Source of the DNA: Phyllobacterium sophorae
GTDB taxonomy: Bacteria; Pseudomonadota; Alphaproteobacteria; Rhizobiales; Rhizobiaceae
Assembly (NCBI RefSeq): GCF_003010965.1
Contig: NZ_PGGM01000008.1
Span: 124,001 to 188,000, forward strand
DNA length: 64,000 bases
Direction of reading: 5' to 3'
Numbering within the stretch: position 1 is the first letter of the stretch; each line of letters opens with the position of its first letter. Of the stretch, positions 5,743 to 39,337 are shown piece by piece. The notes beneath the pieces were generated by a model. That model did not search any database, had not been told where the DNA came from, and saw nothing but the letters and a program-made list of their open reading frames with translations. The translations under genes were made by a program, and so were the position numbers.

Positions 5743-6729
5743 TTGGATATCCGCAAAATAGGCAAGACGCCGCTCGCCGTGACGCAATTCGGGTTTGGCG
5801 GAGCAGCCATCGGCGGGCTCTATCGCGAGTGCACCCGCGAAGCAGCCATGGATACGCTGCAAACAGCCTGGGATGCCGGCTTACGCTATTTCGACACCGC
5901 GCCGTTTTACGGCTTCGGCCTGTCCGAACGGCGCACCGGCGATTTTCTGCGCAGCAAGCCGCGTGAGACCTATGTTCTGTCGACCAAAGTTGGCCGCCTG
6001 TTGCGGGCCGTCCCTGACGATCAGGTACCCGACCATTCCTATGTCAATCCGCTGCCCTTCACCGTCGACTACGATTACAGCTATGACGGCATCATGCGAT
6101 CGTTCGAGTTCAGCTACGCCCGGCTCGGTTTGAACCAGATCGACATTCTCTACGTCCACGATATTGGCACCCACACGCACGGGAACGAGAAGAATGCGCT
6201 CTATTTGCGTCAGTTGCTCGACAGTGGCATGAAGGCGCTCGACGAATTGAAATCCACTGGCGCGATCTCTGCCTACGGTCTTGGTGTCAACGAGGTCGAA
6301 GTCTGCCTCGATGTAATTGCGAGAAGTCCGATCGACTGCATCCTCCTCGCCGGGCGCTATTCATTGCTGGATCGCTCGGCTGAGCGCGGGCTGCTCGAGG
6401 CGTGCCGCGAGCAACAGATTTCACTGGTGATCGGCGGCGTGTTCAATTCCGGTATCCTCGCAACCGGACCGGTTCCTGGTGCCAATTTCGATTACGGCCC
6501 GGCCTCGGACGATATTCTCGAGCGCGTACGGGCCATGCAGCAGATCGCGCAAGCCAATTCGATGCCGCTTGCCGCTGCGGCCATGCAGTTTCCGTTGCGT
6601 GAACCGGTTGTCGCCAATGTCCTGATCGGCACAGCCAAGCCGTCCAGCCTGACCCGAAACATGGAACTGCTGAACGTGAATGTACCGGAGGCGGCCTATG
6701 CCGCGTTTGAGCCCTTTACAATCCGGTGA
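5743..6729 (+). CDS. Aldo/keto reductase (sugar dehydrogenase type)
   Basis: This 328-residue protein resembles the D-threo-aldose/L-fucose dehydrogenase and pyridoxal 4-dehydrogenase branch of the aldo/keto reductases, which oxidise or reduce sugar carbonyls with NAD(P). The catalytic tetrad is visible: D51 and Y56 in FDTAPFYGFGLSE, K82 in STKVGR and H139 in YVHDIG. The start is TTG at 5743, five bases after a good GGGAGAAG ribosome site, and no better ATG exists at this end of the frame. It lies 70 bases after tex and converges on the isomerase gene at 7692-6772, with a hairpin between them. The natural substrate is not evident. Confidence 0.9.
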   Translation: MDIRKIGKTPLAVTQFGFGGAAIGGLYRECTREAAMDTLQTAWDAGLRYFDTAPFYGFGLSERRTGDFLRSKPRETYVLSTKVGRLLRAVPDDQVPDHSYVNPLPFTVDYDYSYDGIMRSFEFSYARLGLNQIDILYVHDIGTHTHGNEKNALYLRQLLDSGMKALDELKSTGAISAYGLGVNEVEVCLDVIARSPIDCILLAGRYSLLDRSAERGLLEACREQQISLVIGGVFNSGILATGPVPGANFDYGPASDDILERVRAMQQIAQANSMPLAAAAMQFPLREPVVANVLIGTAKPSSLTRNMELLNVNVPEAAYAAFEPFTIR

Positions 6730-36495: not shown

Positions 36496-37695
36496 TCATA
36501 CGATGCCCCAAGCGCGATAACGGCCCCTGCCTGTCATTTCGCGCACCCCAAGCTCGGCAATAAGATTGAGTGCACCACGCTGTGTCACCTTCAGCTCCTT
36601 GGCAATCAATGCGGTCGACACCATGGGTCTCGACAAAATGAGATCGATCATGCCCGGCAAGCTCGACGTGGAACGCCGATCCTTCAGTTTCCGCTCCATT
36701 TGCAGCCGCGCAAGGCTCAATCGCTCTATTTCCCTCAGGCTTGCCACACTCGACACTTGGACCGCCTCCAGAAATGCAATCAGCCGGGTGGTGCGATCGC
36801 GGGCCCGGCGGCGATCTCTAGGTATGGTGCGCAGGCCCGCGTTGAAAGCGGCGAGGTGTGATCTGGTCTTTCCGCGCTCCCGCAGCATCGCAGAAACCAG
36901 CATGGGGCCCAGCCAATGCTGATGTTGCAGCGGCTCGATATCCTCCCATGCATCCCACACGACCGCGGCGCCAAGGAGGGGCGGCAGATCGCGCGCCTGG
37001 TCATGAACCATGAACCATCGCTCCATGCGCTTGTCTTCGTTCCATTCGGGATCGTAGACAAGCGGGTCTCCGTCCGGAGTAACCTCGGCCGAAGCTACGG
37101 TCTTCTCTCCCCTGCCCTTCTTGAACGTTTCATCCTTGACCGAAGGCTGCGCCAGAAGCCGCGCCGACCGGTCAAGCAGGGCATCAAGCCGTGCCAATTC
37201 ATCTTCGAACTCATTTTCGGCTTCGGATTTGTTCTCTTGCTCAATGGATGTTTCCAGCTCGATCGCCGGTGCGCTTTCCACTGCCACAATCAAGGCGTCC
37301 GTTGCCGCCCGTCCTCGAAGACTGGCAATCCCTTTCGCACTGAGCGCCCAGGCTGGCGCACCAGCAGCGATCTGGCGCCGGATGCGCAGGATCGCATGGG
37401 CTCTCGTCAATTCGTGGGTTGGCGTGCGGATATCCATGCGTGCATCATGGAGTACCAAATCTTCGACATGGACCAGTTCACCGGCAAGCCACAATGCATT
37501 GCACGCTTCCATGAAATGCGACCGGGCAATCCAGCCGTCGTTCTCGCGCAGCAATCCCTCACGCGAGCGGCGGCTGCCTTCGCCGAAATCGCCCTTGCGG
37601 CTCACCCGGTCATCGAGCCGCGCCAATGCATCCTCGGCCGCGACCAGAGGCCGGAGCAGATCACTGAGGGATATATTGCCAGAATCATAAACCAT
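36496..37695 (-). CDS. DUF1612 / RHE_PE00001 family protein with a C-terminal helix-turn-helix
   Basis: This 399-residue protein of unknown function belongs to a family I recognise from rhizobial plasmids and chromids. The typical N-terminal block reads WIARSHFMEACNALWLAGEL, then VEDLVLHDARMDIRTPTHEL and TRAHAILRIRRQIA. The C-terminal block (SSLPGMIDLILSRPMVSTALIAKELKVTQRGALNLIAELGVREMTGRGRYRAWGIV) looks like a winged helix-turn-helix. The middle (about 160-200) is acidic and likely unstructured. It is preceded 111 bases upstream by an L,D-transpeptidase gene on the same strand, and parS-like palindromes lie 1 kb away. It may be a DNA-binding protein; no function is established. Confidence 0.85.
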   Translation of the reverse strand: MVYDSGNISLSDLLRPLVAAEDALARLDDRVSRKGDFGEGSRRSREGLLRENDGWIARSHFMEACNALWLAGELVHVEDLVLHDARMDIRTPTHELTRAHAILRIRRQIAAGAPAWALSAKGIASLRGRAATDALIVAVESAPAIELETSIEQENKSEAENEFEDELARLDALLDRSARLLAQPSVKDETFKKGRGEKTVASAEVTPDGDPLVYDPEWNEDKRMERWFMVHDQARDLPPLLGAAVVWDAWEDIEPLQHQHWLGPMLVSAMLRERGKTRSHLAAFNAGLRTIPRDRRRARDRTTRLIAFLEAVQVSSVASLREIERLSLARLQMERKLKDRRSTSSLPGMIDLILSRPMVSTALIAKELKVTQRGALNLIAELGVREMTGRGRYRAWGIV

Positions 37696-37806: not shown

Positions 37807-38547
37807 TTAGCCAACCACAACCGTGGCTTTTCCGGGCACGCGATTGTAAAGATCGATAATATCCTGATTGATGAGACGCACACATCCCGATGACATGGAC
37901 TGACCTATCGACCACCACTCGGGCGATCCGTGGATGCGGTATCCGGTATCGGCACCATCCTTGAATATATAAAGCGCACGGGCGCCCAAAGGATTGTCAG
38001 GGCCGGGCTCCATTCCGTTCTCGTACTTCACCAGTTCCGGCTTGCGCTGAATCATTTCTCGTGGCGGCGTCCAGCGTGGCCATTCTTTCTTGTATTGGAT
38101 ATTGGCGCGGCCATTCCACAGGAATCCGGCCTTGCCAATCCCGACACCATAGCGAATGGCATCGCCGCCCGGCTGAACGAGATACAGATAGCGTTCCTGC
38201 AGGCGCACGACGATGGTCCCCGGCTGCTCGCCCGTGGGATCGACCACAATCTGCCGGCGGAATTGCGCCGGAATTTTTTGATAGGGAATTGCCGGCAAGG
38301 AATAAGGTCCTTCCTGGACAGCTGCGTACATCACGTCCGGAACGGTGACGGCTTTGTCAATACTGATCTGCGGACGAATACCGCTCGTCGGCATTGCATC
38401 GATGTTCATCTCCGGCAGATCGAAGGTGGTTTGGGTGCAACCAGATACGCCCAACACGGCCAATGAACCCGCGCCAAGCAAAAGGTGGCGGCGGGATATC
38501 GCGGGAGCCTGCAATCCGGGGGTGGCTGCCTGTTTACGCTGGGACAA
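37807..38547 (-). CDS. L,D-transpeptidase (YkuD family), predicted Tat lipoprotein
   Basis: The protein has 246 residues. The only early start is TTG at 38547, without a strong ribosome site. The N-terminus combines a twin-arginine motif (ISRRHLLLGAGSLAVLG) with a lipobox (VSGC, lipidated C37). The catalytic YkuD motif is complete: H206 in RIHGSPEWW and C222 in SMSSGCVRL. Such enzymes make 3-3 cross-links in peptidoglycan or attach proteins to it in the periplasm; rhizobia often carry many copies. It runs away from the palindrome-rich spacer at 38548-38893. Confidence 0.92.
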   Translation of the reverse strand: MSQRKQAATPGLQAPAISRRHLLLGAGSLAVLGVSGCTQTTFDLPEMNIDAMPTSGIRPQISIDKAVTVPDVMYAAVQEGPYSLPAIPYQKIPAQFRRQIVVDPTGEQPGTIVVRLQERYLYLVQPGGDAIRYGVGIGKAGFLWNGRANIQYKKEWPRWTPPREMIQRKPELVKYENGMEPGPDNPLGARALYIFKDGADTGYRIHGSPEWWSIGQSMSSGCVRLINQDIIDLYNRVPGKATVVVG

Positions 38548-38652
38548 TTTTTTACTCGCTTACAACTGATGGCAATGCTTCAAACTGTATGGAAATGTGG
38601 TTTACAAAACGTGAAGCGGAACAGTCGCGCCTTAACGAATAAGCCTCGCTCG

Positions 38653-38678
38653 GTGCTGTTGACAGCTGTCAACAGCAC
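38653..38678. repeat. Palindrome 1, core GTTGACAGCTGTCAAC, parS-like
   Basis: A perfect 26-bp palindrome is centred at 38665/38666, with the 16-bp core GTTGACAGCTGTCAAC (38658-38673). The core recurs exactly 88 bases downstream. It fits GTTNNCNNNNGNNAAC, the pattern I recall for centromere (parS) sites of repABC replicons in alphaproteobacteria. An operator role is the alternative. Confidence 0.55.
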
Positions 38679-38745
38679 ATGATGGAGGGCGCGAGGCGCC
38701 CACCCGGCGTCGTGCGCACTCGCTGGAAGCGCAAGCGCACTGCCA

Positions 38746-38761
38746 GTTGACAGCTGTCAAC
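38746..38761. repeat. Palindrome 2, GTTGACAGCTGTCAAC, parS-like
   Basis: This is an exact second copy of the 16-bp palindromic core at 38658-38673. Symmetry stops at the 16-bp core here. Flanking bases differ between the copies, so it is the core that is conserved and not a longer duplicated segment. Confidence 0.55.
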
Positions 38762-38893
38762 CGCTCATACAGGAAATGTCCGAGTAGCTTTAAATCCAGG
38801 ACGAATTATGCAATCGTGCGTTTTAGATTTAATCCTTTTCTACGTATGATTGTATTTCGAGTTTAGGATAACACGAGATCAGGGCTTTCTTCG

Positions 38894-39337
38894 ATGGCAG
38901 ATGACACGGCTAACAGCTTTTGGCCGAATACACCGGTGGTAAAGACGACAGAACTATTGGCTGAATGCACCGGTAAATCTGCGCGCGATCCACAAAAACA
39001 GTTGCTTTTGGCTGAAGAGTTCATCCGCAGCAATATCTACAATCCCGTGAGTATTGCAGATATTGCGACAGCCTCAGGAGTCAATATCCGCAGCTTGCAG
39101 CGGCTTTTCCGGAAACACCGTGGCATCACACCCGTTCGGGCCCTGTTGAACTTCCGTATTGCTGCCGCGCATGAAATTATTCTCAGCCGCAAGGCCCCGT
39201 CGGTCCGGGACCTTGCCGCCACATTTCACTTCTCCAATCCCGGCCGTTTCTCCAAGCTCTACCGCCAGACCTATTCCTGTACCCCTTCTGAAGAAATCCG
39301 CTCTTGGCGGAGCCGTGTGCCGACACGATCCGGGTAA
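38894..39337 (+). CDS. AraC-type DNA-binding protein, single-domain
   Basis: The protein has 147 residues from the ATG at 38894. Residues about 38-140 form the complete double helix-turn-helix of the AraC/XylS family: VSIADIATASGVNIRSLQRLFRKHRGITPVRALLNFRI for the first half and SVRDLAATFHFSNPGRFSKLYRQTYSCTPSEEIR for the second. Only about 37 residues precede it, so there is no effector-binding domain. It is either a MarA/SoxS-like stand-alone regulator or the remaining C-terminal half of a longer one. Its upstream spacer contains the two palindromes. Its targets are unknown. Confidence 0.88.
   Translation: MADDTANSFWPNTPVVKTTELLAECTGKSARDPQKQLLLAEEFIRSNIYNPVSIADIATASGVNIRSLQRLFRKHRGITPVRALLNFRIAAAHEIILSRKAPSVRDLAATFHFSNPGRFSKLYRQTYSCTPSEEIRSWRSRVPTRSG

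Follow-up and report, generated by a model that had tools for sequence, protein, structure and literature searches.

Twin palindromes as a probable distal centromere (parS) of a repABC-type partition system in Phyllobacterium

The twin palindromes analyzed here are, with a probability of about 0.9, the distal parS (centromere) of a repABC-type partition system, a reading which rests on sequence comparison. The 16-bp sequence GTTGACAGCTGTCAAC is identical to the parS of Paracoccus aminophilus pAMI4, which was bound by RepB in the gel shifts described in PMC9040568; repABC genes are present on the same contig, and relatives of its RepB have the same 16-mer in or beside their repABC operons. On these three grounds the original prediction of candidate parS sites is supported. 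The site itself is already known, and what seems to be new is its distal arrangement throughout the genus Phyllobacterium.

Position, symmetry and rarity of the sites

The window, which is the whole analyzed stretch of 64,000 nucleotides, corresponds to C48:124001-188000 of the genome. The sites and the genes beside them are as follows.

36496..37695, minus strand: RHE_PE00001 family gene (DUF1612 + HTH_13), part of the 3-kb stretch for 14 of the 20 genus genomes
37807..38547, minus strand: L,D-transpeptidase (YkuD) gene, adjoining the sites in 19 of 20 genus genomes
38548..38893, no strand: non-coding spacer with the twin sites, 346 bp
38653..38678, no strand: candidate parS1 copy a, a 26-bp perfect palindrome with the 16-bp core GTTGACAGCTGTCAAC at 38658-38673
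38746..38761, no strand: candidate parS1 copy b, the exact 16-mer GTTGACAGCTGTCAAC
38894..39337, plus strand: short AraC-type HTH protein, adjoining the sites in 15 of 20 genus genomes

The two exact copies of GTTGACAGCTGTCAAC start 88 bp from each other, and the predicted layout, with two exact 16-bp palindromes in a 346-base gene-free spacer and the first of them extending to 26 bp, was found again at the same coordinates. The 16-mer is a 16-bp palindrome of the GTTNNCNNNNGNNAAC form that is required of a repABC parS. The spacer (38548-38893) has a G+C content of 48.6% against 58.5% for the whole window and has no GANTC site.

Matches to the 16-mer with three or fewer mismatches are expected by chance at a mean of 0.23 in the window, and none of 100 shuffles had two matches. 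In the genome (6,354,559 bases, 49 contigs) the exact 16-mer occurs at these two places only and the next best match has two mismatches, so the palindrome is confined to one contig; an even spread over all replicons would have spoken against the prediction. The loose motif GTTNNCNNNNGNNAAC showed no enrichment genome-wide (78 matches, against 101 with the reversed control), and we gave it no weight; the signal therefore rests in the full palindrome and not in the loose consensus. The reading as a chromosomal ParB site was set aside, as the chromosomal consensus differs from the sequence of the twin palindromes.

repABC genes, RepB relatives and genes beside the sites

The original prediction had proposed that the window may lie on a repABC replicon, and repABC genes were indeed found on the same contig, outside the window. 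A profile search of the genome with TIGR03454 (RepB) gave four matches over the cut-off, two of them on the window's contig.

C48:110222-111259: repB1, separated from the sites by about 51 kb, TIGR03454
C48:262994-263968: repB2, part of a complete repA2B2C2, TIGR03454

The window region matches the 1.59-Mb plasmid of Phyllobacterium sp. A18/5-2 at 97.4% identity over 97% of a 10-kb query, and the order of the GTTCCCAGCTGGGAAC pair beside repA2, the 16-mer pair and repB1 is common to this plasmid and the window's contig. The possibility that the molecule has no repABC is thus removed both for the contig and for the circular plasmid of this close relative, which carries the same pair.

In the window's genome repA1B1 has no adjoining repC, and the same holds for the A18/5-2 plasmid; the repC family matches of the window's genome are found on contigs C5 and C25 and beside repB2 only. 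In the loci fetched from other genus genomes repC follows repB1 in 18 of 18 (in L152 the repC match comes in two pieces). In the gap after repB1 of the window's genome, one stretch of 55-85 bases is 72-77% similar to the repB-repC spacer of the relatives (E 3e-5 to 0.001), and this remnant suggests that repC1 was deleted. Separately, the repC of Phyllobacterium sp. 628 (NZ_CP050303.1 295324-296671) is annotated as two overlapping pieces, and the L152 match of G013 is likewise divided.

Twelve records of RepB relatives were fetched (six Phyllobacterium, two Aminobacter, one Nitratireductor, one Pseudochrobactrum and two Sinorhizobium), the other Aminobacter, Nitratireductor and Pseudochrobactrum RepB matches being left out of the record comparison. 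The two Aminobacter plasmids and that of Pseudochrobactrum have the 16-mer upstream of repA and again near the repA 3′ end; the Nitratireductor plasmid has it upstream of repA, with a second site of one mismatch; and in Chelativorans it is inside repA and repC, beside DUF1612. In a RepB tree of 32 hand-picked rows out of 66 extracted, nine of them Phyllobacterium RepB1, the Phyllobacterium RepB1 falls together with Sinorhizobium RepB1 in a branch of 16 rows (support 100/98), five of which (Aminobacter x2, Nitratireductor, Pseudochrobactrum, Chelativorans) carry the exact 16-mer within or next to their repABC. The RepB of pAMI4 is outside this branch, on a long branch of unsure placement.

The alignment was further compared by residue, all columns being scanned after the fact and five rows of unknown parS set aside. 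R218 and L220 are common to 17 of 17 putative users of the 16-mer, pAMI4 included, and among ten RepBs with other sites R is present in one and L in one; A55 is also common to the 17 putative users and is found in two of the ten others. By our reading residues 218-220 would lie within the recognition helix. By its place in the tree, RepB1 ranks as the RepB type predicted to use this 16-mer. Of 397 sampled genomes of the order, 9 have the exact 16-mer and 0 the reversed palindrome, and none of the 20 other sampled genomes from the window's family had the 16-mer. Among eight other genomes of the order with the 16-mer, a repA, repB or repC match lies within 1.5 kb in three; repB is at 4-5 kb in three more and at 15 kb in one, and it is unlinked in one (G292), where the copy is on a contig without a strong RepB match.

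A scan for DUF1612 confirmed 225 loci, and the best 80 of these were analyzed. A perfect GTTnnnnGCnnnnAAC palindrome is present in 36 of the 80 (reversed control 0) and missing from the fetched stretch in the other 44, some stretches stopping at contig ends, and the DUF1612 gene is near repC in 30 of the 80. The 13 Sinorhizobium/Ensifer-type loci among these best 80 have GTTGTCCGCGGACAAC upstream of repA2 and at least two GTTGACAGCTGTCAAC between repC2 and DUF1612, with extra copies elsewhere in a few. In the window 963 bp separate the start of the RHE_PE00001/DUF1612 gene from the first 16-mer, and the proposed tie between this gene and the sites holds in part: the same sites lie beside DUF1612 in Sinorhizobium/Ensifer and in Chelativorans, but 6 of 17 Phyllobacterium-type loci among the best 80 of 225 have no site within 8 kb, which together with the 44 of 80 rules out DUF1612 as a strict partner of the site. 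In R. etli p42e the DUF1612 gene is directly downstream of repC, and it has been reported to be essential (PMC9022086).

An alternative function would be that of an operator at which a local regulator controls the adjoining L,D-transpeptidase or AraC-type gene, without any role in partition. The nearer site precedes the L,D-transpeptidase ORF by ~110 bp, and the two genes are neighbours of the sites in 19/20 and 15/20 genomes respectively, but in the records examined from Aminobacter, Nitratireductor, Pseudochrobactrum and Chelativorans the same 16-mer is found within or next to repABC, in Sinorhizobium it lies between repC2 and DUF1612, and its sequence equals the proven parS of pAMI4. The gap between the copies also ranges from 36 to 272 bp, and one genus genome has a site without the transpeptidase. 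We regard an operator as very improbable. For the AraC-type gene it is ruled out, as five of the 20 genus genomes keep the sites without this gene in the 3-kb stretch; the gene, present beside the sites in only 15 of 20, is not required by them, and the suspicion that they are conserved only alongside it does not hold. The L,D-transpeptidase gene is probably no more than a positional neighbour.

Conservation in the genus and distance from the operon

All 20 genus genomes have the exact 16-mer, as a single cluster with one or two exact copies in each, and the reversed control gave 0 in all. A pair of sites with at most one mismatch, 36-272 bp apart, is present in 19 of 20, and the sites within one mismatch number 39 in the genus, 31 of them exact. 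A footprint comparison without gaps covered 18 of the 20 genomes, G005 with its single site and the window itself being set aside. The sites of these 18 are 98.6% identical to those of the window, a value that is high partly by construction because sites were chosen at one mismatch or less, and the ten bases on each side are 22-31% identical. Four close relatives align with the window across the whole region at 70-71% with gaps.

These data bear on the possibility that the pair is a relic, i.e. an old parS stranded by rearrangement and no longer working, with RepB1 acting on another, unrecognised site. Eight of the 39 genus sites do have one mismatch and G005 retains one copy without a RepB1 orthologue, but two sites within one mismatch persist in 19 of 20 genomes amid adjoining bases of so low an (ungapped) identity, every genome has at least one exact copy, and two plasmids scanned whole (286 and 389 kb) have no other perfect GTT..AAC palindrome. 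A relic is in our estimate a highly unlikely explanation.

The reading as a working distal parS agrees with the distribution of RepB1, whose orthologue was found in 19 of the 20 genomes, the window's own included, the other 18 at 59-80% identity. No genome but G005, where the best RepB1 match is 47%, has a single site, and in no other is the transpeptidase missing from beside the sites. The 19 genomes with RepB1 are also the 19 of 20 with the L,D-transpeptidase next to the sites, so the two links are inseparable within the genus. The sites and repB1 are on one contig in 13 genomes (the window's own included) and on different draft contigs in 6, where they may share a replicon. Among circular Phyllobacterium records, the six that match RepB1 best all have the 16-mer; four of these are the same records as genus genomes, so that the two sets overlap.

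The distance from the sites to repB1 is about 52-266 kb on the 13 shared contigs and 77-167 kb on the six circular plasmids, where the sites lie at 0.10 to 0.92 of the half circle from the repABC operon. The usual Rhizobiales location in or beside the operon, which is not a condition for a parS, is therefore not the one seen in Phyllobacterium. None of the 18 fetched repABC1 loci (10-14 kb; repA, repB and repC present) has a copy of the 16-mer within two mismatches; they hold one match with three mismatches and one unrelated palindrome with one break. In two of the six circular plasmids, scanned whole (W02, 286 kb, and W04, 389 kb), the pair is the sole perfect GTT..AAC palindrome, with one further one-break sequence of another type in each. 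No clear origin or terminus emerged from the GC skew of two complete plasmids, against which parS could have been placed with respect to replication. On an 863508-base contig of P. endophyticum (L157, L174) the transpeptidase-DUF1612 block is roughly 180 kb from a lone parS copy, provided that the two records of this contig have the same numbering, and the same contig has another repABC, with GTTGTCCGCGGACAAC sites.

The least probable of the explanations considered is that the sites belong to the contig's other repABC, repA2B2C2, and not to RepB1: repB2 is on the same contig and the Sinorhizobium 16-mer sits downstream of repA2B2C2, but repA2B2C2 already has its own, different twin palindrome GTTCCCAGCTGGGAAC just upstream, RepB2 is without the two residues common to the putative users of the 16-mer, and the 16-mer and RepB1 are present in 6 of 6 circular Phyllobacterium records, the GTTCCCAGCTGGGAAC pair only in A18/5-2.

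The repABC of contig C5 has two copies of TTTACTGCAGTAAA around repA (L012:4610-4623 and 6067-6080) and the related repABC of P. endophyticum has one (L161:8806-8819); TTTACTGCAGTAAA may be a different parS type. A 20-kb stretch at the C5 repABC has no GTT..AAC-framed palindrome with at most one break allowed. A lone GTTCTCAGCTGAGAAC palindrome (G000:C5:62197-62212), with the same outer form as the other sites, is located ~19 kb from the C5 repB.

Known parS systems and the proposed mechanism

The 16-mer was found again in the plasmid sequence of pAMI4. As PMC9040568 describes it, the distal locus of this plasmid lies 11.5 kb from repC and consists of three copies; it displaces the parental plasmid, and full stability depends on it. 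It resembles the Phyllobacterium locus in having the identical 16-bp sequence in several copies within a non-coding spacer away from the repABC operon, and it differs in that pAMI4 retains an operon parS, whereas no operon-proximal copy was found in Phyllobacterium. It also lies in a 2-kb AT-rich region at 11.5 kb from repC, compared with a 346-bp spacer in the window and about 52-266 kb in Phyllobacterium. Chromosome 2 of Allorhizobium vitis and its relatives is described in the same source (PMC9040568) as lacking a parS in repABC; its two copies lie 30-90 kb downstream of repC, within an AT-rich region of 1.5-2.4 kb, and a further degenerate site is nearer to repC. This is like Phyllobacterium in combining an operon without parS and two repeats tens of kb away, in a neighbourhood different from that of the window, which has the L,D-transpeptidase and DUF1612. 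Aminobacter, Nitratireductor and Pseudochrobactrum share the 16-mer and the RepB branch with Phyllobacterium, but their sites are operon-proximal.

The window's locus has two candidate parS repeats in non-coding DNA apart from the operon, as in the 3parS-like type (on a replicon which here is without repC1), but its spacer of 346 bp at 48.6% G+C is too short for the long (1.5-2.4 kb) AT-rich region of that type, and we therefore describe the locus as resembling the type without filing it there. Published Rhizobiales parS sites are, by the account in PMC9040568, nearly always in or close to repABC. The methods of that survey state that distal copies were looked for in cases where the repABC region had yielded a parS (PMC9040568), and a search starting in this way would miss the Phyllobacterium arrangement. 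The main text of PMC9040568 does not name Phyllobacterium; in the literature searched, GTTGACAGCTGTCAAC was found in this paper only, and among the matches listed for parS/RepB there was no Phyllobacterium occurrence.

In the mechanism that we propose, the ParB-family protein RepB1, whose gene lies some 51 kb from the two sites on the same contig, would bind them and spread from them, and the ATPase RepA1 would move the RepB1-loaded sites so that both daughter cells receive the large secondary replicon, which measures 1.59 Mb in a close relative with a complete genome. Since no operon-proximal copy was found in the genus, the point of segregation would be apart from the repABC1 operon. In the studied members of the repABC family oriV is inside repC, and if this is so here, the point of segregation would be apart from oriV as well. 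In the window's lineage, where repC1 has apparently been deleted, replication would presumably depend on repABC2 with repC2 as the sole initiator, giving a molecule with two partition systems and two types of parS roughly 100 kb apart. The simplest history would start from an ancestral repABC1-parS1-DUF1612 block, as in Chelativorans, with the operon and the centromere drifting apart in Phyllobacterium.

A parallel is offered by two Sinorhizobium pSymB-type replicons (W09, CP050512.1, and W12, NC_012586.1), which like the window's contig have a RepB1-like repA1B1 without adjoining repC and, as in Phyllobacterium, the 16-mer far from repA1B1 and near a DUF1612 gene, here in three copies at a distance of over 100 kb. 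CP050512.1, whose RepB1 is 52% identical to that of Phyllobacterium, also has a complete repA2B2C2, as does the window's contig. It differs from Phyllobacterium in having a one-mismatch copy near the start of repB1 and two distal copies between repC2 and the DUF1612 frames, separated from each other by a glycosyltransferase gene, whereas the Phyllobacterium sites are not beside repABC.

Taken together, it is about an even chance that the only centromere of the Phyllobacterium secondary replicons has moved far from the repABC operon, that the window's lineage is dicentric, with repA1B1 and parS1 persisting without repC1 beside a full repA2B2C2 and parS2, and that loss of repC is a recurrent route to chromids. 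The similar end state in the Sinorhizobium pSymB-type replicons is what links the last part, for loss of repC with the old centromere kept may have led repeatedly from a fused megaplasmid to a chromid.

ParB-family centromeres are usually near the origin, so that newly copied origins part first. A recognisable repABC centromere at 50-270 kb from its operon, and in one plasmid nearly opposite to it, provides a natural test of this near-origin rule, and Phyllobacterium may also serve for testing how repAB expression is controlled without an operon-proximal parS. Surveys starting at the repABC operon can miss distal centromeres of this kind. The DUF1612 family is placed beside centromeres in several genera; in the S. 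meliloti plasmid CP050512.1 (L162:8825-9983) the DUF1612 gene beside the distal parS seems to be split into separate frames and is absent from the annotation listed.
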